NCBI GenBank assembly: GCA_018714245.1
Contig: DVNQ01000051.1
Location: 1 to 37,004 of the forward strand
Reading direction: 5' to 3'
DNA length: 37,004 nt
From: Candidatus Avilachnospira avicola
GTDB taxonomy: Bacteria > Bacillota > Clostridia > Lachnospirales > Lachnospiraceae
In this document: piece after piece, positions 4 through 32,618 of the stretch
Layout of the letters: each line of letters opens with the position of its first letter
How positions within the stretch are numbered: the first letter of the stretch is position 1
Position numbers and translations under genes: made by a program
Notes under the pieces: model-generated
What the model was told of the DNA's origin: nothing
The model's input: only the letters and a program-made list of their open reading frames with translations
Databases searched by the model: none

Positions 4-89
4 TGCCGGCGATCGGGGTCGAACCGACACGGGAGTCGCCTCCCACGGGATTTTAAGTCCCGGGCGTCTACCAATTCCGCCACGCCGGC
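4..89 (-). tRNA. tRNA-Leu (anticodon TAA)
   Basis: The minus strand folds into an 86-nt class II tRNA. The acceptor stem GCCGGCG pairs with CGCCGGC, a long variable arm follows the anticodon arm, and the T-arm has loop TTCGACC. The anticodon loop reads CTTAAAA, giving TAA (Leu UUA/UUG). CCA is not encoded. It is the last of three tRNAs behind the promoter at 287-315. Confidence 0.95.
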
Positions 90-17916: not shown

Positions 17917-17921
17917 TTAGT

Positions 17922-18100
17922 TAGCCTGAGATGTGCGTTTGGTTTATTTAATTACTTCCACAATCTGACATACGGGACTTCGGTATTGTAGCGTGGATGT
18001 CGGGCCGCCCCTGAGCGGATGGCTGAAGCGGCTTCCGAGAAGACCCACCCTGGCTATATAGCTGGGAGTCACTTATAAACCGACGGCACCTTGGGTTTTT
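17922..18100 (+). ncRNA. ssrS: 6S RNA (regulator of RNA polymerase)
   Basis: A roughly 180-nt structured RNA that mimics an open promoter and binds the housekeeping holoenzyme. Its two ends form a long interrupted closing stem. AGCCTGAG pairs with CTTGGGTT, GTGC with GCAC, and GGTTTAT with ATAAACC. The 5' CTGAGATGTGCG resembles E. coli 6S (CTGAGATGTTCG) and CCGAGAAGACC resembles CCGAGAAGCC. Between the ends are a terminal arm (CCAC...GTGG, ATAC/GTAT) and a 3' hairpin around GCTATATAGC, leaving a large open centre. It ends in GGGTTTTT. Recognition is by eye; a covariance search would settle it. Confidence 0.78.
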
Positions 18101-18153
18101 AAATTACGAAAGCAAAACAGATAATATATATTTTTCACAGGAGGTTACTTATC

Positions 18154-19358: not shown

Positions 19359-19805
19359 TCAGCCTTCCTGCTTTCCAGAAAGCTTCTCGAAAAGATAAAG
19401 GATGGCTTTTTCATATCCCTTGAAGCCTTCCCCATAAAAGGTCTTTTCCGCAGCAAGGGATATATATGAATGATGGCGGAACTCTTCTCTTTCATAGATG
19501 TTGGAAAGATGTACCTCGCAGCATGGGATGTTTACCGCCTTCAATGCATCAAGTATTGCCACGCTGGTGTGGGTATAGGCTGCCGGGTTTATGACGATGG
19601 CATCAGTACTTCCGTAAGCCTCCTGTATCCTGTCCACTATGTCGCCCTCATGATTGGACTGGAAGAAGGAGACCTCTATCCCCTTTTTCTCACATATGCT
19701 TCTGCAGTATGAAAGGAGCGATTCATAGCTCTCCTCCCCGTATATCCCTTTTTCCCTTATGCCCAGCATATTTATATTGGGTCCATTAATAATCAGGAGC
19801 TTCAT
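19359..19805 (-). CDS. aroQ: 3-dehydroquinate dehydratase, type II
   Basis: Third step of the shikimate pathway: 3-dehydroquinate to 3-dehydroshikimate. The 148-residue protein has the type II pattern KLLIINGPNINMLGIREKGIYG, with the catalytic Tyr at about residue 22. NPAAYTHTSVAILDAL lies near 73-88 and EVHLSNIYEREEFRHHSYIS near 98-117. I use ATG 19805, where the conserved N-terminus begins. It overlaps the end of the aroE-aroK fusion by 20 nt and is the last gene of the aromatic operon. Confidence 0.95.
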   Translation of the reverse strand: MKLLIINGPNINMLGIREKGIYGEESYESLLSYCRSICEKKGIEVSFFQSNHEGDIVDRIQEAYGSTDAIVINPAAYTHTSVAILDALKAVNIPCCEVHLSNIYEREEFRHHSYISLAAEKTFYGEGFKGYEKAILYLFEKLSGKQEG

Positions 19806-21048
19806 AAAGCTTTTTCCATATCCTTTCAGCGACCAGGCGTGGCTCATCTTCATTTGTAAAGATAAAGTCCGCATAGCCGCGGTATTTTTCTATCCTTGTA
19901 TCATATATGCGCCTGAGATCATCCAGGCTTCCGGAAAGGGGCCTGCCCTCCCTGCCAAGCTCAGAAAGTTCTCTCTCAAGGAAGATCACGGGCCCGTTCT
20001 GGTGCAGGGCCCTCATGTTTTCCTCCCGAAGGACCACGCCGCCACCAGTGGCGATGACCGTACCGGTCATCTTTCCAAGCTCCTTTACGGCCTCCGTTTC
20101 CAGCTCTCTGAAATAGGTCTCTCCATACTCGGCAAATATCTCCGGTATGCTCATGCCGGCATCATTTTCCACAAAGATGTCGCTGTCCAGAAAGGCCTTG
20201 CCGCAAAGCAGTGAAAGTTCCCTTGCCACCGTTGTCTTTCCGCATCCCGGCATGCCGATTATGTTTATGTTCATAAGATCGTTTTTGAGTATGCGGTATA
20301 TATCTTCTACGGCAGAGGTTTCGACCTGTTTTCCAAAAAACAGCTCATGGGCCCTTACCGCCTGGGCAATAAGCATCCTGAGCCCGGAGGCAGTCCTGAG
20401 GCCGGCTTTTTCCGCATCCATGATGAGCTCAGTCCGCCTCGGATTATAGATCACATCCACCACTGCATAAAGCTCAGGGAAAATGCTTATGTCGATAGGC
20501 GACTCCCCATTTCCCGGAAATGTCCCTACCGGAGTGGTATTGATTATGACTTCTGTTTCCTTCCTTTCGGAGACATTGTCATAATTGAGGCTTCCCTTCC
20601 TTGAGACCACCTTCGCAGAAGCAGCTCCCGCCTTCCTGCATAGGGCTCTTGCGGTAAGGGAGGTCCCTCCGCTTCCAAGGATAAGCACATGTTTCCCCCG
20701 GAGGTCTATGTCTGCGGATCCAAGCAGATACTCCATGCCGAAAATATCGGTATTGTCTCCAAAAAGCCTTCCATCCTGAAGCCTGACTATCGTATTTACC
20801 GCACCGATCTCCCTAGCTTCATCCGAAAGCTCATCCAAATAAGGGATCACAGCCTGCTTATAGGGTATGGTCACGTTTATCCCTGAAAAAGCCTTCTCTT
20901 CCATGAATCCGGGAAGTTCCTCTTCCGAAAGCTCTATAAGCCCATATTCTTTATTTCCCAGGAGGCCGTGTATCCTGGGGGAAAAGCTGTAGGGAAGCCT
21001 GCGTCCCAGAAGTCCGTATGAGGGATATTTTCTGTCCGTATTATCCAT
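19786..21048 (-). CDS. aroE-aroK: Bifunctional shikimate dehydrogenase / shikimate kinase fusion
   Basis: One 420-residue chain carries two consecutive shikimate-pathway steps. Residues 1-250 are AroE: SFS at 21-23 for shikimate binding, Lys64 in NVTIPYKQ, GDNTD at 97-101 and the NADP loop ILGSGGTS near 123-130. Residues 259-420 are AroK: the P-loop GMPGCGKTT near 265-273, the DSD motif (FLDSDIF) and ATGGGVVLRE. The linker is short (YRILKND). An internal ATG at 20274 begins the kinase part but has no ribosome site, so I read the gene as a true fusion. GAGG precedes the start ATG by 7 nt, 9 bp behind pheA. Confidence 0.92.
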   Translation of the reverse strand: MDNTDRKYPSYGLLGRRLPYSFSPRIHGLLGNKEYGLIELSEEELPGFMEEKAFSGINVTIPYKQAVIPYLDELSDEAREIGAVNTIVRLQDGRLFGDNTDIFGMEYLLGSADIDLRGKHVLILGSGGTSLTARALCRKAGAASAKVVSRKGSLNYDNVSERKETEVIINTTPVGTFPGNGESPIDISIFPELYAVVDVIYNPRRTELIMDAEKAGLRTASGLRMLIAQAVRAHELFFGKQVETSAVEDIYRILKNDLMNINIIGMPGCGKTTVARELSLLCGKAFLDSDIFVENDAGMSIPEIFAEYGETYFRELETEAVKELGKMTGTVIATGGGVVLREENMRALHQNGPVIFLERELSELGREGRPLSGSLDDLRRIYDTRIEKYRGYADFIFTNEDEPRLVAERIWKKLYEAPDY

Positions 21049-21057
21049 GGGCCGTCC

Positions 21058-22200
21058 TCAGATGATCTCGGAATAACTTCCAAGATAAGTGAATTTCTCA
21101 AATTCATCGTCAAATTCACAGAGCAGCCTCTGTACCTTTTCATCATGTATGTTGGCTTCAAGATCGAAATAGAACATGAACTGGAAGTCCGTATCCGGCA
21201 TGGGGCGGCTCTCCAGCTTCGTAAGATTGAGGCCGAGAGCTGAAAATCTGGATACCACATGATACAGGGACCCGGGCTTATGGGCTATTGAAAACATAAG
21301 GCTGGTCTTGTCCGCTCCGGGATATATCTCAAGGTTCTTGGAAATGCAGATGAACCTGGTATAGTTGCTCTTATTATTCTGTATGCCGTCAGCAAGGGCC
21401 TTAAGTCCGTAAAGCTCTGCACAGTTCCTTGAAGATACGGCAGCGATGTCATTTCTGTCCGATTCCATGACCATACGGGCTGCTGTGGCCGTATTTTCAC
21501 AGACCCGAAGCTTCACTCCCTTGAGCTGGCCAAGAAATTCACTGCACTGTTCAAGGGCTATGTCCTTGGACCATATCTCCTTTATGTTCGAAAGCCTGGT
21601 GCCGTTTTTGGCAAGGAGGCTGTGTTCCACCTTGATCTTGGCTCCGCGTACGATGTAGAACTTGTGCTTCTTCATAAGATCATAGACCTCATTTACGGAG
21701 CCTGCAGTACTGTTTTCTATCGGGAGCACTCCGTATCTGCAGAGCCCGCTCTCAACAGCCTGGAACACGCTCCTGAAATTATCGAAGTACATGATGCTGG
21801 GCATGTTGAATATCCTGTCACAGGCAGACTGGCTGTAAGAGCCCTCCACTCCCTGACAGGCCACCACTGACCTTGAAGGAAATACATCCGGAGTGTTCCT
21901 GAGAGCATCCCTTATGGCATCCCCGATCTTTGATCCGGTGGCAAGGCTCCTGTACTCGTAGGAACGGGTAACGTCAAAAAGTGTGGTGTAGAGCACATTT
22001 GCATAGGATTCCAGTTCAGGTCCCACCTTATCCTCCACCCTGTTAAGAACGGCCCTTTCCCTCTCCCGGTCAAATACCGGCAGCTTATTTGCGCTCTTAT
22101 AGGCCGCTATCTCCCTTGCTATGCCCATGCGCTCGGCAAAAAGCCTGGTCAGCTGATCATCTATGCTGTCTATCCTTGTCCTTGCTTCCTTAAGATCCAT
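21058..22200 (-). CDS. pheA: Bifunctional chorismate mutase / prephenate dehydratase
   Basis: Makes phenylpyruvate from chorismate, the committed route to phenylalanine. The 380-residue protein has an AroQ-type chorismate mutase at about 1-90 (ARTRIDSIDDQLTRLFAERM). The dehydratase follows from about 105 (VACQGVEGSYSQSA), with the catalytic Thr in the NYTRF motif. A C-terminal ACT domain has GSLYHV and ESRP (near 330), the residues that bind Phe in feedback-inhibited enzymes. So both the protein (ACT) and the operon (attenuator) appear Phe-responsive. The start is 2 bp after the aroC stop, with GAGAGG upstream. Confidence 0.96.
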   Translation of the reverse strand: MDLKEARTRIDSIDDQLTRLFAERMGIAREIAAYKSANKLPVFDRERERAVLNRVEDKVGPELESYANVLYTTLFDVTRSYEYRSLATGSKIGDAIRDALRNTPDVFPSRSVVACQGVEGSYSQSACDRIFNMPSIMYFDNFRSVFQAVESGLCRYGVLPIENSTAGSVNEVYDLMKKHKFYIVRGAKIKVEHSLLAKNGTRLSNIKEIWSKDIALEQCSEFLGQLKGVKLRVCENTATAARMVMESDRNDIAAVSSRNCAELYGLKALADGIQNNKSNYTRFICISKNLEIYPGADKTSLMFSIAHKPGSLYHVVSRFSALGLNLTKLESRPMPDTDFQFMFYFDLEANIHDEKVQRLLCEFDDEFEKFTYLGSYSEII

Positions 22201-22202
22201 CG

Positions 22203-23318
22203 TTATCCTCTCCCTTCAATATCAAGCAGCATATCATAAATACATATCGCAGTTACCGCCTCCACAACGGGAACGGCTCTCGGCACTATACAGGGATCAT
22301 GACGTCCCTTTATGCAAAGCTCCCTGTTTTCTCCCGCTTTCATATCCACGGAATCCTGGGCCTTCAGTATGGATGCGGTAGGCTTTACCGCCAGTCTGAA
22401 GATAAGGGGCATGCCGTTTGTGATCCCTCCGAGTATGCCTCCTGCATGGTTTGAGACTGCATGGATGCTTCCGTCCTCTCCCATACGATAGGGATCATTG
22501 TGCTGACTTCCCCTCATAAAAGCTGCGCCGAAGCCTTCACCGAATTCAAGTCCCTTAACTGCCGGGATCCCGAAAACAGCCTCTGCTATACGGTTCTCCG
22601 CTCCGTCAAACATCGGATTACCAAGTCCTGCAGGCAGTCCCAGTACCCCGCATTCTATAATGCCCCCGACCGAGTCCTGATCCATCCTGGCCTCCTCTAT
22701 GACTGCCATCATGGCCTCAGCCCTCAGGGGATCATTTGCCGGAAAATCCTTTTTCCCCGCAAGGAGCAGATCTTCTTTTGTAAGCCCTGCAGGATCATAT
22801 CTATTTTCAGTCTCAGGTCCGATCCGTTCGATATGGGCCCCTATATATATGCCCCTTCGTTCCAGTATCTGTCTGACCAGTCCTCCGGCAAAACAGAGGG
22901 GCGCCGTAAGCCTTCCGGAAAAATGGCCTCCGCCCCTTACGTCCTGAAACCCGTGGTACTTTATCTCTGCCGTAAGATCCGCATGTCCGGGCCTGGGTAT
23001 CCTCTTAAGCTCATCATAGTCTCCGGAGCGCTGGTCCGTATTTCTGATGACCGCACATATGGGAGCACCGCAGCTTATCATAACAGACTCTTTTGTCTCG
23101 TCAGGAAGAAGGCCTGAAAGTATCTCCGGCACGTCTCCTTCCCTTCGCTTTGTGGAATATGCATTCCTTCCCGGAGCTCTTCTCTGCATGAAGGCCCCGA
23201 GCTTTTCCATATCTATATGCTCTCCGGCCGGGATCCCGTCGATAACCGCTCCTATCCCGGCAGAGTGGGACTGTCCGAAAACAGATACCTTTATATTATC
23301 CCCGATCATAGATGACAT
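22203..23318 (-). CDS. aroC: Chorismate synthase
   Basis: Last common step: EPSP to chorismate, requiring reduced FMN. The 371-residue protein shows FGQSHSAGIGAVIDGIPAG near 14-32, the RRAPGRN segment, RPGHADLTAEIKY near 109-121 and DVRGGGHFSGRLTAP near 126-140, and NHAGGILGGITNGMPL near 291-306. The ATG has AGGAGG 6 nt upstream and overlaps the end of aroA by 13 nt, which suggests translational coupling. Confidence 0.97.
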   Translation of the reverse strand: MSSMIGDNIKVSVFGQSHSAGIGAVIDGIPAGEHIDMEKLGAFMQRRAPGRNAYSTKRREGDVPEILSGLLPDETKESVMISCGAPICAVIRNTDQRSGDYDELKRIPRPGHADLTAEIKYHGFQDVRGGGHFSGRLTAPLCFAGGLVRQILERRGIYIGAHIERIGPETENRYDPAGLTKEDLLLAGKKDFPANDPLRAEAMMAVIEEARMDQDSVGGIIECGVLGLPAGLGNPMFDGAENRIAEAVFGIPAVKGLEFGEGFGAAFMRGSQHNDPYRMGEDGSIHAVSNHAGGILGGITNGMPLIFRLAVKPTASILKAQDSVDMKAGENRELCIKGRHDPCIVPRAVPVVEAVTAICIYDMLLDIEGRG

Positions 23319-24589
23319 CCCGTACCTCCTGTCCTCTCAAGCCTCACGCCAAGCCTCCTGAGATCATCAAAAAATCCAGGGTAGGATTTTTCAACTGCCT
23401 CTGCTCCCGTTATCTCCACCGGCTCCCTGCAGAACAGGGCTCCGATCGACAGAGCCATGGCTATACGGTGATCATTGAAGGATGAGACTTCCGTTCCTCC
23501 CGGAAGCTCTCCTGCCTTTCCCTCTATAATAAGCTCTTCCGGCAGCTCCCTGATATCAGCACCCATCCTCTGAAGCCCTTCACTTATGGCGCTCAGCCGG
23601 TCGGATTCTTTTATCCTGAGCCTTCCTGCATTTACTATCCGGTGCTTTCCCGGAGTCAGGGCCATGGCGACCGCACATATCGGTACCAGATCAGGGACCG
23701 AAGAAGCGTCAAGCACACAGCCTTCGCCATGGCTCAGCTCCTTCAGTATGTCCGCTATCGCCCGGTCTCCCTGGACCGAATCCTCTCTAAGGCCGTTTAC
23801 CTTTATCTGCCCGCCTCCAAGCAGCATGTCCGCTGCAAGGAAGAAGGCCGCATTTGACCAATCTCCATCGGCTTCATAATGAAATGGGGATACATATCCC
23901 GGGTGTCCTTCGTTTTTCTTATAGGAAAAGCTCAGCTTTCCATCCCGTTCGCTCATTGATATCCGGATGCCGAACCTTTTCATGGTATCCATGGTCATGT
24001 CCACGTAGGCCTGGGATTCCAGCCCTGTCGTAAGGGAAAGCCGTGAATCCCCCTCCATAAGCGGAAAGGCAAGCAGCAGGCCTGATACGAACTGAGAGCT
24101 TATGTCTCCCGGCAGGCTGAAGCTGCCCGGTGTCATGCTTCCCTTTATGCTTATCGGGAGTTTTTCCCCTTTGACGCTGATCCCGTGTGCTGAAAGCTCG
24201 AAAAGGATGGGTCCCAGCGGCCTTTCAGGAAGCCTTCCTTCACCGGTAAATCTTGTACTGATGCCGGCAGCCGCAAATACCGGGATCAGGAACCTCAGTG
24301 TGGAGCCGCTTTCCCTGCAGTCCGCAGGCACACTATCCCCCGGGCCTTCTCCGCGGATCCTGCCGGGGCTTACGATAAAAAGGCCTTCCCCCGGATCATA
24401 GCATATAGCTGCTCCTGCGGCACGGAGACATGAGGCTGTAGCCTCCATGTCCCGCGATATCGAATTCGAATGGATAATAGTCTCCCTATCGGAAAATGCC
24501 GCACAGATCAATGCCCTGTGTACATCTGATTTTGAAGCCATGGCCTCCATGCTGCCATGGGGTTTAGATGGATATATCCTTATGTTCAA
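23306..24589 (-). CDS. aroA: 3-phosphoshikimate 1-carboxyvinyltransferase (EPSP synthase)
   Basis: Transfers the enolpyruvyl group of PEP to shikimate-3-phosphate. The 427-residue protein has SKSDVHRALICAA near 19-31, ESGSTLRFLIPV near 92-103 (PEP-site region), GDISSQFVSGLLLA near 160-173 and RIKESDRLSAISEGL near 331-345, then NDHRIAMAL. The 96-region reads GSTLRFL, not the commonest GNAGTA form. The start is TTG at 24589, 6 nt behind AGAGG. No ATG is suitably placed. It starts 20 bp after aroB. Confidence 0.95.
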   Translation of the reverse strand: MNIRIYPSKPHGSMEAMASKSDVHRALICAAFSDRETIIHSNSISRDMEATASCLRAAGAAICYDPGEGLFIVSPGRIRGEGPGDSVPADCRESGSTLRFLIPVFAAAGISTRFTGEGRLPERPLGPILFELSAHGISVKGEKLPISIKGSMTPGSFSLPGDISSQFVSGLLLAFPLMEGDSRLSLTTGLESQAYVDMTMDTMKRFGIRISMSERDGKLSFSYKKNEGHPGYVSPFHYEADGDWSNAAFFLAADMLLGGGQIKVNGLREDSVQGDRAIADILKELSHGEGCVLDASSVPDLVPICAVAMALTPGKHRIVNAGRLRIKESDRLSAISEGLQRMGADIRELPEELIIEGKAGELPGGTEVSSFNDHRIAMALSIGALFCREPVEITGAEAVEKSYPGFFDDLRRLGVRLERTGGTGCHL

Positions 24590-24609: not shown

Positions 24610-25677
24610 TCAGTCATTTTTCAAAGCCTTTGATGAGCCAAAGAGCCCTGGCAGCTCCTCTGCCCCTGTTTCATAGATCATGCATTCTCCAATGGAAACG
24701 GGAAGTATGAGCTTTATGCTCCCTCCGCTGCGTTTCTTATCGGAAAGGGCAGCTTTTCCAACCTCTTCAGCGGAAAACGGTGCGCTTACGGGAAGGCCAT
24801 TTTTCAGAAGCACCTCTCTGATCCTGTCTCCAAGTCCCCCATCGCAGAAACCAAGCTTTTCTGACAGGTCTGCAGCGACGCACATTCCCACAGCGACTGC
24901 ATGTCCGTGGGTCATGGAAAAGCAGCTTAGCTTTTCGATGGCATGCCCGGCAGTATGCCCCAGATTAAGGAACATGCGAAGTCCCAGATCATACTCATCC
25001 TCTTCAACATAGCCGGCCTTTATCTCCACGCTGCGCCTGATTATGAATTGCAGCTTCTCCCGAGCCTCTCCCCTGGCAAATATGTCAAATATCTCAGGGT
25101 CCTTAAGGATCCCGTACTTTATCGCTTCCGCAGCTCCGTCAGCAAAGGTCTTGGGCTTCAGGGTGGAAAGTGTATCTGCATCACAGATGACAAGCTCAGG
25201 CTGATAAAATGCCCCTGCCAGGTTTTTCCCTGCCTTAAGATCTATGGCAGTCTTGCCTCCAACTGATGAATCTATGGCAGCAAGGAAAGTGGTGGGTATC
25301 TGTACATAGCCTATGCCCCTCAGATATGCAGATGCGGCAAAGCCGGCGATGTCTCCGCATACACCCCCTCCCAGGGCGATCACCAGGTCACTCCTGGATA
25401 CTCCGTTTTCAGAGAGGAAATCCAGTATCCTTCCGAAATTCTCCAGGTTCTTATGCTGCTCTCCGTTCTCAAAGACGTATTTGACTACGGTAAAGCCCGC
25501 ATCATGGAGGCTTCTTTCCACTGTCTCCGAATAGAGCCCGGAGACTATGTCGTCCGTTATCAGAGCCGCGAGACAGGGAGTCCTGACCTCCTTTATAAGC
25601 CTTCCGCACTCATTAAGGATGTTTCTTCCGATAATGACATCATATTTTTTTGATGCTCCTACGCTCAAGCTTTCCAT
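24610..25677 (-). CDS. aroB: 3-dehydroquinate synthase
   Basis: Second step of the pathway: DAHP to 3-dehydroquinate, using NAD and a divalent metal. The 355-residue protein contains FENGEQHKNLENF, ALGGGVCGDIAGFAAS near 100-115, PTTFLAAIDSSVGGKTAIDL near 127-146 and the metal-binding NLGHTAGHAIE near 242-252. Length is typical. Its ATG shares one base with the tyrA stop (TAATG), giving tight translational coupling. Confidence 0.96.
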   Translation of the reverse strand: MESLSVGASKKYDVIIGRNILNECGRLIKEVRTPCLAALITDDIVSGLYSETVERSLHDAGFTVVKYVFENGEQHKNLENFGRILDFLSENGVSRSDLVIALGGGVCGDIAGFAASAYLRGIGYVQIPTTFLAAIDSSVGGKTAIDLKAGKNLAGAFYQPELVICDADTLSTLKPKTFADGAAEAIKYGILKDPEIFDIFARGEAREKLQFIIRRSVEIKAGYVEEDEYDLGLRMFLNLGHTAGHAIEKLSCFSMTHGHAVAVGMCVAADLSEKLGFCDGGLGDRIREVLLKNGLPVSAPFSAEEVGKAALSDKKRSGGSIKLILPVSIGECMIYETGAEELPGLFGSSKALKND

Positions 25678-26564
25678 TATTTTTTAAGATCCTCCCTGCG
25701 GTCTATCATCTCTTTCTGTATTCTGCCCTGTCTGAGCTCCTCCATAAGCTCTTCCCTTTTCCCTTCCTTTATGAGTCTGGAGTAGAGCTTTAGCTCATCG
25801 CAGAGCCTGTCTATCTCATAGGAAAGGGCCTCCCGATTATCCAGAAAAAGCTCCGTCCACATGACTTCATTGAGCCATGCCACTCTTGTAAGGTCCAGAT
25901 AGCTTCCGGCAGAATATCCGTCATGGACCCGGGCAGTAGGGCTTTTCACATAGGCATTTGATACCACATGGGCAAGCTGGGAGGTAAAGGCTATGATCCG
26001 GTCATGGACATCCATGTCCGTCCTGACCGTCCTTCCGAAGCCAAGTTCCATGAAAAAAGCCTCGGCTCTCCGGATCTCCTCCTCAGAGGCCTTTATCGGG
26101 ACAAATATCATGGAGGCAGAATTAAACAGGTCTCCTCTGGAATTATAGTATCCTGTCTTTTCCGTGCCTGCCATGGGATGGCCTCCGATAAAACTGAAGG
26201 CCGCATCCTCAAGTACGGGCATAAGCGGTTCTATGACTGCCTTCTTTACGCCGCAGAGGTCTATGACCATGGTCTCCCGGGATATCAGCTCTTTTTTCGC
26301 TGAAATAAAATCCACGCAGGCTCTGGGATAAAGGGCTATGAGCAACAGCTCACAGCTGCCTATATTGTTATCTGTGAGTCTCCCATCTATCGTGCCGTCT
26401 TTCAGGGCGCTTTCCTGTACCCCGGTATCCCTGTCAAATCCAAGGACCTGGCTTTTGGTCCTCCTTTTTATGGTCTTTGCCATGGAGGCGCCGATAAGTC
26501 CAAGGCCTACGATGCCTATGGTACCGTATGTCTTTTCTCCGGCTCCAAAGTCTCCGTCCCTCAT
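25677..26564 (-). CDS. tyrA: Prephenate dehydrogenase
   Basis: Oxidises prephenate to 4-hydroxyphenylpyruvate, the tyrosine branch. The 295-residue protein has the dinucleotide loop GIVGLGLIGAS near 17-27, IDLCGVK and the catalytic-site GGHPMAGTEKTGY near 143-157. It lacks the C-terminal ACT domain found in some Firmicutes TyrAs, so Tyr control may rest on the operon attenuator rather than on this enzyme. The start overlaps the aroF stop (ATGA). A related arogenate dehydrogenase activity cannot be excluded. Confidence 0.93.
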   Translation of the reverse strand: MRDGDFGAGEKTYGTIGIVGLGLIGASMAKTIKRRTKSQVLGFDRDTGVQESALKDGTIDGRLTDNNIGSCELLLIALYPRACVDFISAKKELISRETMVIDLCGVKKAVIEPLMPVLEDAAFSFIGGHPMAGTEKTGYYNSRGDLFNSASMIFVPIKASEEEIRRAEAFFMELGFGRTVRTDMDVHDRIIAFTSQLAHVVSNAYVKSPTARVHDGYSAGSYLDLTRVAWLNEVMWTELFLDNREALSYEIDRLCDELKLYSRLIKEGKREELMEELRQGRIQKEMIDRREDLKK

Positions 26565-27574
26565 CCCAGTTCCTTTCCGACTATGTCAAGTATTGCCTTT
26601 ATGTCAGGCACAAGCTTTGAAAATGCATCCGGAGTTATGGACTGGGGCCCGTCGCAGAGTGCATGCTGAGGATCGTTGTGTACCTCTATGATAAGACCGT
26701 CCGCTCCTGCCGCAGCCGCTGCAAGGGACATGGATCTTACGAATCTCGAATGTCCGGTGGAATGGCTGGGATCTATGACTACCGGAAGGTGAGAAAGCTC
26801 CTTGATGACCGGTATGGCTGAAAGATCCAGGGTGTTCCTGGTATAGGTCTCAAAGGTCCTTATGCCTCTTTCACAGAGGATGACCTGTTCGTTTCCGCCT
26901 GCCATGATATATTCGGCACTCATAAGGAGCTCCTGAATGGTGTTTGCCATGCCCCTCTTAAGAAGTATGGGCTTTCTCAGCTTTCCGAGCTCCTTGAGCA
27001 GTTCAAAGTTCTGCATGTTCCTGGCACCCACCTGTATCACATCCACATCCTCGAAAAGGGGGATGTGGGAAGCATCCATGATCTCCGTAACTATCGGAAG
27101 CCCTGTTTCCTTTCTGGCTTCCTTAAGGAGTTCCAGTCCTTCTGCCCTTAGTCCCTGAAAGGCATAGGGGGAGGTCCTGGGCTTGAAGGCTCCGCCTCGG
27201 AGCAGTCCGGCACCGTCATTTTTAACTTCCCGGGCTATATATGTGATCTGCTCCCTGGATTCTACTGAACAGGGGCCGGCTATGATCTGGAAATGTCCCC
27301 CTCCGAGCTTTGTTCCGCCGATATCCACCACCGTATCATCGGGATGGAATTTACGGTTCGCATTCTTGAAAGGCTCCTGGATACGCTTTACGGTCTCCAC
27401 AAAGTCCAGGCTTGACAGAAGGTCTTCGTCAAGTCCCGAGGTATCTCCTACAAGGCCCAGTATGGTCTGGTATCTGCCCACGCTTAAGTGAGTATCCACT
27501 CCGAGGCTTTTCAGCCATTTTATGAGGTTGTCGATCTGAGCCTGGCTTGCATTGTCCTTAAGTACGAGTATCAT
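26561..27574 (-). CDS. aroF: 3-deoxy-7-phosphoheptulonate (DAHP) synthase, type I-beta
   Basis: First step of the shikimate pathway: PEP plus erythrose-4-phosphate. The 337-residue protein has an N-terminal ferredoxin-like regulatory domain (about 1-70) like that of Thermotoga DAHP synthase. The barrel follows with IAGPCSVES near 98-106 (metal ligand Cys102), RGGAFKPRTSPYAFQG near 126-141 and DPSHSTGH near the C-terminus. Members with this N-domain are often inhibited by Tyr or Phe. It is the first gene of the aromatic operon, with AGGAG 8 nt before the ATG, 66 nt behind the attenuator terminator. Confidence 0.95.
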   Translation of the reverse strand: MILVLKDNASQAQIDNLIKWLKSLGVDTHLSVGRYQTILGLVGDTSGLDEDLLSSLDFVETVKRIQEPFKNANRKFHPDDTVVDIGGTKLGGGHFQIIAGPCSVESREQITYIAREVKNDGAGLLRGGAFKPRTSPYAFQGLRAEGLELLKEARKETGLPIVTEIMDASHIPLFEDVDVIQVGARNMQNFELLKELGKLRKPILLKRGMANTIQELLMSAEYIMAGGNEQVILCERGIRTFETYTRNTLDLSAIPVIKELSHLPVVIDPSHSTGHSRFVRSMSLAAAAAGADGLIIEVHNDPQHALCDGPQSITPDAFSKLVPDIKAILDIVGKELG

Positions 27575-27640: not shown

Positions 27641-27671
27641 AAAAAAGGCTTCGCAGTTTTACTGCGAAGCC
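27641..27671 (-). terminator. Attenuator terminator of the aromatic operon (3:4 hairpin)
   Basis: GGCTTCGCAGT pairs perfectly with ACTGCGAAGCC around a 3-nt AAA loop, followed on the minus strand by TTTTTTATTT. It stands after the leader peptide and before aroF, where unconditional termination would silence the whole operon, so it must be regulated. Confidence 0.93.
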
Positions 27672-27767
27672 GATAACTTACTATGGATAATGGATATCCT
27701 ATGCAACAGCAGCAAAACTAACAACCCTACCTGAGTTGGTAAAGTAGTAATAAAAGTATGCTGCTGC
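27655..27767 (-). promoter_or_regulatory. Ribosome-mediated Tyr/Phe attenuator (alternative pairing region)
   Basis: Segment 1 is GCAGCAGCA (27759-27767), inside leader codons 7-9. Segment 2 is AGTTTTGCTGC (27709-27719), inside codons 23-26. Segment 3 is GCAGTAAAACT (27655-27665), which spans the terminator's inner stem and loop. Segment 1 pairs with TGCTGCTGT (27706-27714) over 9 bp. Segment 2 pairs with segment 3 over 11 bp with one G-U. The 2:3 pairing excludes both 1:2 and the terminator. A ribosome held on codons 10-15 would cover segment 1 and favour 2:3, allowing read-through. This is the classical attenuator logic. The pairings are seen in the sequence; the mechanism is inferred. Confidence 0.85.
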
Positions 27768-27785
27768 AAACATGTTGTTCTGCAT
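27699..27785 (-). CDS. Tyr/Phe-rich leader peptide of the aromatic operon
   Basis: A 28-codon ORF with ATG at 27785, stop TAG at 27699-27701 and ribosome site GGAG 5 nt upstream. Codons 10-15 are Tyr-Phe-Tyr-Tyr-Tyr-Phe (TAC TTT TAT TAC TAC TTT), with further Phe at 6 and 24. Eight of 28 residues are Phe or Tyr. Three Ala codons directly before the run form segment 1 of the attenuator, and the Phe-Ala-Ala codons near the end form segment 2. It follows a good promoter and precedes a terminator. A second in-frame ATG at codon 5 is possible but lacks a ribosome site. The peptide itself probably has no function beyond sensing charged tRNA-Tyr and tRNA-Phe. Confidence 0.88.
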   Translation of the reverse strand: MQNNMFAAAYFYYYFTNSGRVVSFAAVA

Positions 27786-27814
27786 ATTAGCTCCAAAAAC
27801 AAAAATCTTTTAAA

Positions 27815-27843
27815 AGATTATCATACTTGACATCCAATGTAAA
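27815..27843 (-). promoter_or_regulatory. Promoter of the aromatic operon
   Basis: Minus-strand TTTACA, 17 nt, TAATCT, with TGA directly before the -10 (extended -10). The predicted start near 27808 gives about 23 nt before the leader ATG. The -35 lies 7 bp behind the stop codon of the aminotransferase gene, with no terminator between them. Confidence 0.8.
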
Positions 27844-29053: not shown

Positions 29054-29931
29054 CTTGTCTCCATCCTTTCCGCACCTTCACTGCATATGCTGAGGGACAG
29101 TGTCCTGTGTCCCGGAAATGCCTGCTTAAATTCTTCGAGTATCCTCTGTTCCCTGTCACCCTGCTTTACTGCCGCCATCATGGTAGAGCCTGATCCGCTT
29201 ATGAAAAAGGCAGCAGCCCCTCCTGAGACAGCCAGCTCCCTTGCCTTTCCATAATCAGGGATAAGCTCCCTTCTGTAGGGTTCATGTAGTATGTCCCTGC
29301 AGGCCGCGGATAAAAGTTCCTCATCGCCGGTCTCCAAAGCCCGAAGAAGGCCTGTGACATGGCCTGTAGTATATATGCTGTCCGCAAGACCTATATCCTT
29401 TTTTACGACTCTCCTGGCGTCCTCTGTCCTTACCTCATAATCAGGTATCAAGGTCACAAATCTCCATTCCCCGTCACAGCAATAGCCGGTGCAGTAGACC
29501 CTTCCGCCCTCGGAAAAGCCTGCCACCACGCCTCCGTATATGGCAGGGGCCACATTGTCAGGATGTCCTTCTATGGAGGTTGCAAGGCTTACCATGTCCT
29601 CCTTTGAAAGCCCCAGCCCATGGAGCTCGTTAGCCGCCATGATCCCTCCGACTATGCAGGTCGAGCTGGATCCAAGCCCTCTTGCTATCGGCACCTCTGT
29701 CTCTTCCTTAAGGCTTATCGGGATATAGGCCCTGCCTGACATATCCAGCGCCTTTTTATAGCTTCTTATGAAAAGATTGTCTTCATTTCTGTATTCTTCA
29801 GGGCAGCCCTCTATATGCAGGCTGTCGGAAAGCTCCGCATCAAAGCAGGCGTAAAGGGAAAGGGCCGCTCCCAGTACGTCATAGCCCGGTCCGATATTTG
29901 CCGTGGTAGCCGGCACTTTTATCCTAATCAT
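29050..29931 (-). CDS. thrB: Homoserine kinase
   Basis: Phosphorylates homoserine in threonine synthesis. The 293-residue GHMP-family protein begins RIKVPATTANIGPGYDVLGAAL and has the ATP motif PIARGLGSSS at 81-90, then GHPDNVAPAIYGGVV near 136-150 and the C-terminal GGAAAFFISGSGSTM. Length is typical. The start overlaps the thrC stop (ATGA), and the stop overlaps the aminotransferase start. Confidence 0.94.
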   Translation of the reverse strand: MIRIKVPATTANIGPGYDVLGAALSLYACFDAELSDSLHIEGCPEEYRNEDNLFIRSYKKALDMSGRAYIPISLKEETEVPIARGLGSSSTCIVGGIMAANELHGLGLSKEDMVSLATSIEGHPDNVAPAIYGGVVAGFSEGGRVYCTGYCCDGEWRFVTLIPDYEVRTEDARRVVKKDIGLADSIYTTGHVTGLLRALETGDEELLSAACRDILHEPYRRELIPDYGKARELAVSGGAAAFFISGSGSTMMAAVKQGDREQRILEEFKQAFPGHRTLSLSICSEGAERMETR

Positions 29932-31415
29932 AAAAGCAGTGATCTCCTTACATTGTCATATACGAATCCCTTCATCTCCCGTATGTCCAGCACCTCTTTA
30001 TGAAGTATGGGCTTTTTCTGAAGGTCCCTGAGGGATTTCGGAATGGGCTCCCCTGTCCTTTCGTAAAGAAGGGCCATGGCCTCCTGGCCGCTGACAGCTC
30101 CGCCTCCGAAGATGGAGCCATAGACATCCGAAGCAAATTTATAGGGGCTTGCTGTGGAAAGTATGACCATGGGACAGTCTCCCGCAGCTCCCCGCCTCCT
30201 GCAGTCCTCCGCCACCTTGATGGCAACTGCGGTATGGGGATCCACTACACGGTCATAGCTTTCATATGAAGCCCTTATGGCCTCCCTGGCCTCATCGTCA
30301 GAAGCATATCCGCAGTCAAAGCTCTCCCTTATCCCGGAAAGCATCTCATCGGAGATCCTGAAGTATCCCTTTTCAGAAAGATCCTTCATCAGTCCTGCAG
30401 TAAGTTCACAGTCTCCGCCTGATTCATAGTAGAGCATGCGTTCCAGGTTGGAGGATACAAGTATGTCCATGCTGGGAGAGATGGTCTTCTTGAATTCCCT
30501 TCTCCTGTCATATACTCCGGTAGTGAGGAAATCGGTAAGCACATTATTTTCATTGCTTGCCACTATGAGCTTTCTTACCGGAAGCCCCATCCGTTTTGCG
30601 ATATATCCTGCAAGCACGTCTCCGAAGTTCCCCGTAGGGACACAGAAATCCACAGGATCTCCCGGCAGTAGCTCTCCTCTTGCCATAAGCTGCCTGTAGG
30701 CATCCGCGTAATATACTATCTGAGGAATCAGACGGCCGATGTTGATGGAATTGGCACTTGAAAGATATACTCCCGAGCCTTCAAGCTCCGATACGATGTC
30801 TGATGAAAATATCTTCTTCACCTCGGTCTGGCAGTCATCAAAATTGCCTCTTACTGCACCAACGAAGGTATTGTTCCCTTCCTGGGTGGCCATCTGCAGA
30901 TACTGGATGTCGCTGACCTTCTGATAGGGATAAAACACCGTTATGGCTATACCGCTGGCATCCCTGAAGCCCTCAAGAGCCGCCTTTCCCGTATCTCCGC
31001 TCGTAGCGGTCACTATCATCAGCTTCTCATCCCTGTCCTTAAGGGCTATGCTCATAAGCCTGGGGAGCATGCAGAGTGCCACATCCTTAAAGGCACATGT
31101 AGGCCCGTGATAAAGCTCTAAAAGCCAGTCATTGCCAAGTGGAGTCACCGGAGTGATGAGCCTGCTTGCAAATTTATCGTCATAGGCTGAGGCTATCGCA
31201 TCCTTAAGGCTCTTTTCATCCATATCTGAAAGGAAGCGCTTCATGATGTCAAAAGCCAGCTCCCTGTATCCTTTATCGATCAGCGCCCCGGGATCAAGTC
31301 TTTCACCATCCATATCATCAGTCACAAAAAGCCCTCCGTCATCACAGAGCCCCTTTAGTATGGCATCCCTGGAGTCAAAATATGCCTCCTTTGATCTGGT
31401 GCTGTGATACTTCAC
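29928..31415 (-). CDS. thrC: Threonine synthase
   Basis: Converts O-phosphohomoserine to threonine with PLP. The 495-residue protein begins KYHSTRSKE and has the Schiff-base Lys110 in TCAFKDVAL, then TSGDTGKAAL and PTGNFGDVLAGY. It is the longer threonine synthase class typical of E. coli and many Clostridia. The start is GTG at 31413-31415, 4 nt behind AAAGGAGGGGG. The open frame continues upstream through the intergenic region but has no protein similarity there. It is transcribed away from hom. Confidence 0.94.
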   Translation of the reverse strand: MKYHSTRSKEAYFDSRDAILKGLCDDGGLFVTDDMDGERLDPGALIDKGYRELAFDIMKRFLSDMDEKSLKDAIASAYDDKFASRLITPVTPLGNDWLLELYHGPTCAFKDVALCMLPRLMSIALKDRDEKLMIVTATSGDTGKAALEGFRDASGIAITVFYPYQKVSDIQYLQMATQEGNNTFVGAVRGNFDDCQTEVKKIFSSDIVSELEGSGVYLSSANSINIGRLIPQIVYYADAYRQLMARGELLPGDPVDFCVPTGNFGDVLAGYIAKRMGLPVRKLIVASNENNVLTDFLTTGVYDRRREFKKTISPSMDILVSSNLERMLYYESGGDCELTAGLMKDLSEKGYFRISDEMLSGIRESFDCGYASDDEAREAIRASYESYDRVVDPHTAVAIKVAEDCRRRGAAGDCPMVILSTASPYKFASDVYGSIFGGGAVSGQEAMALLYERTGEPIPKSLRDLQKKPILHKEVLDIREMKGFVYDNVRRSLLL

Positions 31416-31451
31416 CTTACCCCCTCCTTTGCTTTTCTGATTTTGCTTTGC

Positions 31452-31514
31452 ATGATACCACATGATACCATATTTTCCCCGCTTTTGCTTGTTATTTCGA
31501 TACCACTGTGATAT
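31452..31514. promoter_or_regulatory. GATACCA repeats in the thrC-hom divergent region (possible operators)
   Basis: ATGATACCA occurs twice in direct tandem exactly 10 bp apart (GATACCA at 31454-31460 and 31464-31470). GATACCA occurs a third time at 31499-31505, inside the spacer of the hom promoter. The third copy is part of an imperfect palindrome, ATACCACTGTGATAT (31500-31514). Each of the first two copies contains TATCAT on the minus strand, a possible thrC -10, but no good -35 is visible there. A shared regulator of thrC and hom is an inference. Confidence 0.45.
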
Positions 31515-31517
31515 TTT
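31489..31517 (+). promoter_or_regulatory. Probable promoter of hom-lysC
   Basis: Plus-strand TTGTTA, 17 nt, TATTTT, with TGA directly before the -10. The predicted start near 31524 leaves a leader of about 27 nt containing a GGAGG ribosome site. Confidence 0.6.
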
Positions 31518-31550
31518 TATGAAATAAAAGCTTGGCCGGAGGAAAATACC

Positions 31551-32618
31551 ATGAAGATAGCGATACTTGGTTTCGGAACAGTGGGAAGGAATGTATTCCG
31601 GCTCCTTGAAAATGTGAAGGATGCCGAAATATGCCGTGTACTGGAGCAGCCCGGCAGGATCACTGAAGATTTCATGACCTCTGATCCTGAGGAGATATTC
31701 AATGACCCTGACATCGGGATCGTAGTCGATGCACTGCCCGGCATACACCCCTCCTATGAATATATCAAGAAAGCCCTGAATGCAGGAAAGCATGTGGTCA
31801 GCTCAAATAAGGCAGCCATATGCTTTGGATTTTCGGAGCTTGCGAAGCTTGCGGAAAGCAAGGGTGCCGCCCTTCTTTATGAGGCTTCCTGCGGAGGGGG
31901 CATCCCCATTATAGAGGAGATCCTGCGGGTAGGATCCAACGACAGCATCTCCAGGGTCTCCGGCATACTGAACGGTACCTGCAATTACATGCTCTGGAAG
32001 ATGGAAAAGTACGGCATGAGCTATGAAGAGGCTCTCAAAGAGGCACAGGCCCTCGGCTATGCGGAGGCGGATCCCACTGCCGATGTAAGCGGATTTGACG
32101 TAAGGAACAAGATCCTTATACTCTCCTCCCTGGCATATGACTCTGCCCTCTCCTGCGATGTACCCATGATGGGCATCGAGCAGGTAACAAAGGAAAGGAT
32201 GGAAGTCTTCCGAAAGGAGGGAAAATGCATAAAGCTCATGGGCATTTCCGTAAGAGAAGGAGCTTCCTATGCCATCTCTGTATGCCCCGTGGTGCTTCCG
32301 GATACTTCTCTTGAGGCAAACGTGGCATCCAACTTCAATATAGTCTCCTTTACCGGAGATCATGTGGGAGAGCTCAAGCTTTACGGGCAGGGAGCCGGCG
32401 GAGATCCCACGGCGGATGCAGTAATAAGGGACATAAAGAAGATCCTCCTTGGAGACGCCTTCCTTTATGAAAGGAAATTTGAAAACATCCTCACAGAAGA
32501 TGCTTCTCTTCTTCGGGGGACCTGTCATGTGGGAGGCCGGATCCTTAAGGATCATGTTCTTTCCGAGGCTCTTATGGAAGCAAAAGCCCAGGGCTGCTTC
32601 TTCGCCTTTGAGCCCTGA
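31551..32618 (+). CDS. hom: Homoserine dehydrogenase
   Basis: Reduces aspartate semialdehyde to homoserine with NAD(P)H. The 355-residue protein has the dinucleotide loop GFGTVG at 7-12, SNKAAI near 84-89, YEASCGGGIPII near 104-115 and GILNGTCNYML near 131-141 (substrate-binding region), then EADPTADVSG near 166-175. It lacks the extra C-terminal ACT domain of the B. subtilis type enzyme (over 400 residues), so direct Thr feedback through ACT is not expected. GGAGG lies 8 nt before the ATG. lysC follows after 31 bp. Confidence 0.94.
   Translation: MKIAILGFGTVGRNVFRLLENVKDAEICRVLEQPGRITEDFMTSDPEEIFNDPDIGIVVDALPGIHPSYEYIKKALNAGKHVVSSNKAAICFGFSELAKLAESKGAALLYEASCGGGIPIIEEILRVGSNDSISRVSGILNGTCNYMLWKMEKYGMSYEEALKEAQALGYAEADPTADVSGFDVRNKILILSSLAYDSALSCDVPMMGIEQVTKERMEVFRKEGKCIKLMGISVREGASYAISVCPVVLPDTSLEANVASNFNIVSFTGDHVGELKLYGQGAGGDPTADAVIRDIKKILLGDAFLYERKFENILTEDASLLRGTCHVGGRILKDHVLSEALMEAKAQGCFFAFEP

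Follow-up and report, generated by a model that had tools for sequence, protein, structure and literature searches.

In enteric bacteria, the pheL/pheA and trpL/trp systems are governed by ribosome-mediated attenuators, in which a leader ORF with control codons is combined with the RNA pairings 1:2, 2:3 and 3:4, and termination is the default when the leader is untranslated; in trpL, segment 2 follows the stop codon. In the phylum to which the DNA studied here belongs, T-boxes are common, and these sense tRNA directly, without translation. A T-box has been described at a tyrosine operon of the Bacillus cereus group (PMC2494555), and leader-peptide attenuation in Firmicutes is in print for the His leader peptide of hisS/hisZ in bacilli (PMC2965389) and the Leu-rich ilv leader of Staphylococcus aureus (PMC5794164), both of which, as far as those descriptions go, resemble the present leader in mechanism but concern other amino acids, genes and orders. 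At shikimate genes, as here, two candidate uORFs encoding Phe and Tyr have been presented from five genomes including Clostridium novyi (Stav et al. 2019, PMC6429828); the text that accompanies them (their Fig. 6b) gives neither organism nor sequence and describes no antiterminator test, and they are likened to our leader by description only. The uORFC-13-1 motif (PMC8632094), with 24 representatives from Acholeplasma and environmental sequences only, likewise joins a uORF with Phe codon(s) to a terminator upstream of aroF and is predicted to attenuate; it is set apart, by description only, by having Phe alone and by its Acholeplasma and environmental sources. Another candidate, gbs2033 (PMC4448216), is a riboswitch-like cis-regulatory element at ABC transporter genes that also lies upstream of an Enterococcus faecium aroFBC-tyrA operon; it too is set apart by its description only, which makes no mention of a leader peptide. 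The relevant part of PMC4448311 holds nothing bearing on a leader of this type. Judging from these descriptions, a Phe/Tyr leader-type attenuator at shikimate/aroF genes is already known as a kind, in the form of published candidates, and the suggestion in an earlier note on this DNA that the element was possibly undescribed was too strong in view of the Phe/Tyr uORF candidates, the Acholeplasma aroF uORF and the Firmicutes leader-peptide attenuators just cited. In the open-licence literature, no report was found that tests the 1:2/2:3/3:4 architecture in such leaders or their breadth in Clostridia.

The leader described here lies in a window of 37,004 nt (the whole stretch of DNA that was analysed), which is contig 12 of a 1.58-Mb assembly with a completeness of 91.9%. 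Like pheL and trpL, it has a leader ORF with control codons, segments 1:2 and 2:3, a terminator 3:4 and, by prediction, default termination. Unlike them, it precedes an eight-gene shikimate and Tyr/Phe operon, mixes Tyr and Phe codons and belongs to Clostridia, and its segment 2 lies inside the ORF, unlike that of trpL. With the T-box (RF00230) it would share antitermination control by an amino acid, as well as the phylum, and T-box matches occur elsewhere in the same genome; it differs in its translation-dependent sensing, and no T-box was found at the leader itself. Comparative sequence evidence makes it very likely that this leader works by ribosome-mediated transcription attenuation, in the manner of trpL and pheL, and senses charged tRNA-Tyr and tRNA-Phe. 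This is the reading that the earlier note had given, and it is supported by the conserved Tyr/Phe run, by covariation of 2:3 and 1:2 among strongly diverged loci, by the spacing of the segments and by the lack of an Rfam match at the leader.

The leader and the operon it precedes

On the minus strand, a gap of 276 nt separates the end of an aminotransferase ORF (27851) from the start of the DAHP synthase gene (27574). This gap holds a promoter-like hexamer pair, a ribosome site, a 28-codon ORF, a terminator and the aroF ribosome site, with the following parts:

27838..27843, minus strand: -35-like hexamer TTTACA, read in the sequence
27815..27820, minus strand: -10-like hexamer TAATCT, 17 nt past TTTACA, read in the sequence
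27791..27794, minus strand: Shine-Dalgarno-like GGAG of the leader ORF, read in the sequence
27699..27785, minus strand: leader ORF of 28 codons plus stop, MQNNMFAAAYFYYYFTNSGRVVSFAAVA, from translation; Tyr/Phe-rich counterparts lie upstream of relatives' aroF
27759..27767, minus strand: segment 1, GCAGCAGCA, directly 5' of the control codons, from the predicted fold and 1:2 co-evolution
27741..27758, minus strand: control codons 10-15, Tyr-Phe-Tyr-Tyr-Tyr-Phe, from translation
27724..27745, minus strand: apical hairpin of the 1:2 arm, ACTTTACC...GGTAGGGT, from stem search and predicted fold
27709..27719, minus strand: segment 2, AGTTTTGCTGC, codons 23-26, predicted to pair with 1 or 3
27655..27665, minus strand: segment 3, GCAGTAAAACT, upper 5' arm, loop and start of the 3' arm of the terminator, from pairing counts
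27647..27671, minus strand: intrinsic terminator (3:4), GGCTTCGCAGT-AAA-ACTGCGAAGCC, 11 perfect bp with a loop of 3, from the sequence and stem search
27641..27646, minus strand: terminator U-tract, TTTTTT in DNA, read in the sequence

From start codon to U-tract the leader measures 145 nt, most of it ORF and terminator. The predicted fold has a 9-bp helix between segment 1 and the region of segment 2, and the 2:3 pairing is complete in the window (11/11, one pair being G-U). The elements by which trp/phe-type attenuators are recognised can be found here: a leader ORF (translation predicted) that has its own ribosome site and carries successive control codons for the amino acids whose synthesis the operon serves; an intrinsic terminator between this ORF and the first structural gene, present in relatives too; an antiterminator, 2:3, that is kept in evolution and excludes the terminator; and a protector hairpin, 1:2, beside the control codons. 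The ORF with its ribosome site and Tyr/Phe codons had been read correctly, base for base, in the earlier note, and the sequence likewise agrees with the perfect 11-bp terminator and U-tract given there. Its promoter fared less evenly: TTTACA-17-TAATCT is present, and TTTACA followed 17 nt on by TAnnnT can be seen by eye in 12/12 same-genus loci, but a strict sigma-70 consensus scan of the leader region found no promoter. A Shine-Dalgarno-like motif accompanies 57 of 69 leaders against 11.8 in shuffles, a contrast that is overstated and unfair since an observed leader could draw on as many as three in-frame starts and a shuffled one on a single start. A counterpart of the apical hairpin, CUUUACY...GUAAGG, appears in most same-genus rows of a 12-leader alignment and is weak in L004.

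The eight genes downstream encode shikimate pathway enzymes and those of the Tyr and Phe branches:

26561..27574, minus strand: aroF, DAHP synthase, first operon gene (NCBIfam NF006421, 493.6 bits, cut-off 335)
25677..26564, minus strand: prephenate dehydrogenase, tyrA-like (the families listed all are or contain prephenate/arogenate dehydrogenases, none above its cut-off)
24610..25677, minus strand: aroB, 3-dehydroquinate synthase (TIGR01357 above cut-off)
23306..24589, minus strand: aroA, EPSP synthase (TIGR01356 above cut-off)
22203..23318, minus strand: aroC, chorismate synthase (NF003793 above cut-off)
21058..22200, minus strand: chorismate mutase-prephenate dehydratase, pheA-like (PRK11898, 211.4 bits, cut-off 219, plus N-terminal chorismate mutase families)
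19786..21048, minus strand: shikimate dehydrogenase-shikimate kinase fusion, aroE-aroK (each half matches its family, below curated cut-offs)
19359..19874, minus strand: aroQ, type II 3-dehydroquinate dehydratase (TIGR01088 above cut-off)

The gene set from aroF to aroQ matches what had been claimed; 3/8 genes (prephenate dehydrogenase, chorismate mutase-prephenate dehydratase and aroE-aroK) fall short of the curated cut-off of the best-matching family. The fusion of aroE and aroK into one ORF was missing from the earlier finding.

In the proposed mechanism, transcription would begin a short way before the leader ORF, and RNA polymerase would be trailed by a ribosome. A shortage of charged tRNA-Tyr or tRNA-Phe would make this ribosome stall at codons 10-15 and mask segment 1; segment 2 would then pair with segment 3, the terminator would be blocked and aroF-to-aroQ would be transcribed. 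With both tRNAs charged, it would instead be free to move on over segment 2 to the stop codon, 3:4 would fold and transcription would terminate at the U-tract near 27641. Were the leader not translated, 1:2 would form and termination would be the default outcome.

Recurrence of Tyr/Phe leaders upstream of aroF

A DAHP synthase search gave matches in 114 of 195 related genomes, and upstream DNA was taken from 90 listed places, comprising 30 (the window's own included) and a further 60 loci; at least 13 more full-length places at about 50% identity, plus weaker ones, fall outside this sample. A profile scan of named genomes added 80 loci, the best 80 of 592. Two of the resulting 170 loci (L132 and L163, with <200 nt upstream against a minimum of 300 nt) were dropped, leaving 168. 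Of these aroF upstream regions, 59/168 contain a short ORF in which a stretch of 8 residues includes 6 or more Tyr/Phe, whereas five dinucleotide-shuffled sets give 0, 1, 2, 2 and 0 and the reverse strand gives 2; because the loci were picked by similarity to the window's aroF and are related to one another, such shares are not a census. At the looser threshold of at least 5 in 8, the count rises to 90/168 (shuffles 4-12, reverse strand 15), and some of these ORFs are due to chance. For the window's leader a chance origin was rejected, since its predicted fold of -53.6 kcal/mol compares with -30.2 +/- 3.4 in dinucleotide shuffles (z -6.9; 0 of 200 as good) and its architecture recurs in relatives far above shuffles.

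An automated detector accepted an ORF with a terminator in the right place at 30/90 relatives and 37/80 named loci, and scored a further 19 of the 80 named loci as having an ORF and no terminator. The detector is known to miss some: inspection by eye of four of these 19 (L098, L102, L105 and L171) shows a hairpin close to a U-run in each. No Tyr/Phe ORF was found at 24/80 named aroF loci, which include Faecalibacterium sp. An122, Papillibacter, Desulfosporosinus and Collinsella, as well as the two loci with <200 nt upstream. Within the order to which the window belongs, leaders are present in its own genus, in further genera of the same family and in further families; going by record labels, they also occur in Oscillospiraceae, Ruminococcaceae, Lachnospiraceae and one Christensenella MAG. 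Among named isolates, a leader was seen in Angelakisella massiliensis (L098), Bittarella massiliensis and Clostridium magnum DSM 2767, for example. Leader-bearing MAGs labelled Treponema and Planctomycetaceae are possible binning errors. This occurrence in many Clostridia contradicts any view of the leader as a local oddity.

The earlier note had proposed a covariance model search upstream of Clostridia aroF, and such a search was made with a model built from 12 same-genus leaders. In the window's own genome the leader scores 133.5 bits, and there is one other match, a weak one (E 0.69). Over 200 genomes of the family, 8 have matches; setting aside the window's genome and one training member, 5/6 matches lie directly upstream of aroF, including one in G212, new to the sample, and the match in G276 lies away from aroF. 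The model is narrow; for example, it gives no match in G043, the genome of the L030 leader.

What is kept across loci is a run of Tyr or Phe, not fixed residues. The 69 runs hold 236 Tyr and 211 Phe (codons TAT 116, TAC 120, TTT 171, TTC 40), with both residues in 64 runs and one alone in 5. These figures bear on a variant reading, in which the attenuator is real but responds to a general slowdown of translation or to one amino acid, Phe or Tyr. The varying Tyr:Phe ratio and the five single-residue runs lend it something; the presence of both residues in nearly all runs, and an operon that carries the branch enzymes of exactly Tyr and Phe, make it unlikely. Whether runs richer in Tyr go with a downstream tyrA was also considered. 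An apparent link in 56 loci (35 vs 21, Tyr share 0.56 vs 0.31, p 0.0002) was gone in the stricter set and is not claimed: among strong leaders with enough downstream sequence, no link was found (25 vs 5 loci, 0.55 vs 0.45, p 0.34; 3 loci dropped because their downstream sequence was too short).

Some leaders depart from the common pattern. In L018/L185, the run is diluted to EYYVSSFTLYY, the terminator is retained and the covariance model still matches; this leader is perhaps a decaying or retuned attenuator. A separate aroF leader type with a conserved SWG(Y/F) is found in L048, L050, L059, L061 and L167, and also in L054, L064, L153 and L168. It combines Phe/Tyr with one Trp codon, within AGCTGGGGCT in L048, L050, L054, L059, L061 and L064; in L059 and L061 the SWG(Y/F) stretch is itself the best partner of the terminator arm, with weak scores. 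Trp sensing may have been added in these leaders, or constraints of RNA pairing may have brought in the Trp codon incidentally.

Co-variation and spacing of the pairing segments

Pairs of 2:3 were counted without gaps in 17 hand-picked loci; a MAFFT alignment of 12 leaders was not used for this, as its gaps are misplaced in segment 2. Pairing is retained at 178/187 pairs, a count that leans towards pairing since the loci were picked because they pair. Both sides have changed at 4/11 positions, and pair 7 is broken in 6/17 of the loci. For instance, the pairing is AGUUUUGCUGC:GCAGUAAAACU in the window, AAUUUUACUGU:GCAGUGAAAUU in L015 and GGUUGCACUGC:GCAGUGGAACC in L020. The compensatory changes and conserved runs that the earlier note had advised looking for can be found. 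As to loss of the run or of 2:3 with the terminator kept, which it took to count against an attenuator, 2:3 holds to the extent just given in these hand-picked loci, and L018 shows a diluted run with its terminator in place. The reading frame of segment 2 shifts between loci, being 0 in the window, 1 in L008, L010 and L011, and 2 in L119, and in L100 the segment lies past the stop codon; its bases are kept all the same, which indicates that RNA pairing is kept there, not peptide.

Segment pairings were also assessed by a swap test, in which duplex energies within a locus are compared with those of all between-locus pairs after removal of row and column means, with 20000 permutations. Zone 1 is the sequence before the Tyr/Phe run, zone 2 that after it, and zone 3 the 5' arm of the terminator with the loop and first 3' bases. 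ORFs and terminators were chosen blind to pairing, except for L022 and L038, which were added by hand to the 32-locus set; L158 (2:3 of only -3.0) and L145, which look unlike leaders, were both retained in the counts of the later tests on named and on 60 thinned loci. In the 32 loci (window and relatives), 2:3 averages -18.3 within loci vs -14.7 when swapped, and 0/20000 permutations are as good, a result repeated in 24 thinned loci and in 12 thinned window-type loci. The corresponding counts for 1:2 are 0/20000, 0/20000 and 1/20000. Taken alone, 12 loci of other leader types give a weaker 2:3 signal (88/20000), and single-locus 2:3 scores are weak in L059 (z 0.2), L023 (-0.7) and L028 (-0.9). 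The 37 named loci behave alike, with 2:3 at -19.3 vs -13.9 (0/20000), 1:2 at 0/20000 and 1:3 at 647/20000.

The broadest set comprises 60 thinned loci (the 69 minus 8 close relatives and 1 short of upstream sequence). Here 2:3 reaches -18.9 kcal/mol for self pairs vs -14.0 for swapped ones (z -12.9, 0/20000), and 1:2 has a z of -10.0 (0/20000). The remaining 5/7 pairings were meant as controls: upstream:3 (z 0.0), run:3 (z 0.4), 1:3 (z -2.5), upstream:2 (z -2.4) and Tyr/Phe run:2, which at z -6.2 is not a null, perhaps owing to an extension of the 1:2 arm across the control codons. The run itself is, by these predicted pairings, a partial contributor to that arm. The swap tests imply that segments 1 and 3 each fit segment 2 specifically, as the attenuation model requires; together with the fold and the pair count, they uphold the exclusive pairings 1:2 (9 bp), 2:3 (11 bp) and 3:4 that had been described from the window alone.

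The spacing of these segments can be set against the size of a ribosome, whose footprint extends about 12-15 nt to either side. Across 69 loci, with wide ranges, the median distance from the end of segment 1 to the first Tyr/Phe codon is 9 nt, that from the last such codon to the start of segment 2 is 20 nt and that from segment 2 to the terminator is 42 nt; the corresponding distances in the window are 0, 20 and 37 nt. This arrangement suits a ribosome that, stalled in the run, would cover segment 1 and leave segment 2 free.

These observations also bear on a different explanation, in which a functional small protein is made from the ORF, and the terminator either acts as a simple attenuator or marks where a separate short transcript ends. 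A good ribosome site and a Tyr/Phe run that recurs among relatives would suit such a protein, but the peptide is highly variable between loci outside the run, segment 2 keeps its bases despite changes of frame or a position after the stop, the RNA of the ORF co-evolves with the terminator, and NCBIfam and Pfam scans of 7 leader peptides gave no match at E<=1. Such a protein is therefore highly improbable.

T-boxes and the probable place of leader-peptide control in Clostridia

Rfam, including the T-box family, gave no match to the window's leader at gathering score, and the sub-threshold matches at E<=10 are not credible. The window's genome does contain five T-box matches, four of them over the cut-off, which by eye from translations adjoin pheS, thrS, an ABC substrate-binding protein and a metN-like ATPase, with the weak fifth after alaS. 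With a T-box at pheS and a leader peptide at the aro operon, this one genome appears to use two different Phe sensors. Elsewhere, a T-box was found at 1/20 leaderless named aroF loci (20 of the 24 were scanned), at 0/20 leaderless relatives' aroF loci and, like any other Rfam family, at 0/20 leader-bearing aroF loci (20 of 37 scanned). That the leader is an unrecognised T-box or metabolite riboswitch with an incidental ORF is hardly credible, for although T-boxes abound in the phylum and occur both in this genome and at one leaderless aroF (L152), neither the window's leader nor the 20 scanned leader-bearing loci has a credible Rfam match, and the 145 nt are mostly ORF and terminator.

For ribosome-mediated attenuation, by comparison, the evidence extends well beyond the window. 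On balance it seems probable that, in several orders of Clostridia, the shikimate pathway has as a main control fast-evolving Tyr/Phe leader-peptide attenuators (with Trp added in some lineages) and not T-boxes, and that these attenuators form a single long-lived class in which the RNA segments have repeatedly changed sequence in concert. If so, no sequence-based RNA family would describe these leaders because only their logic is conserved. The comparative evidence is strong for enteric-style, translation-coupled attenuation of a central aromatic pathway in many Clostridia, where T-boxes would be expected. Since such attenuation needs a ribosome close behind RNA polymerase, these leaders could serve as natural tools for probing how transcription and translation are coupled in Clostridia. 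Rules for annotating short ORFs of an overlooked class can be drawn from them as well, and the swap test offers a way to confirm attenuators in which sequence conservation is lacking.

Several minor observations can be added. The T-box adjoining pheS in the window's genome is L032 (G000:C118). That of L152, at 2696-2945 directly upstream of aroF in an Erysipelotrichaceae MAG, scores 121 bits. The window also contains a 6S RNA match (RF00013) at 17920-18101 on the plus strand, whose 49.9 bits are barely above the gathering score of 46.4. Finally, an ORF at 29928-31793 on the minus strand matches threonine synthase and one at 31551-32618 on the plus strand matches homoserine dehydrogenase, so that their 5' ends overlap; the threonine synthase match spans residues 193-561 only, and the start of that ORF therefore probably lies further in.
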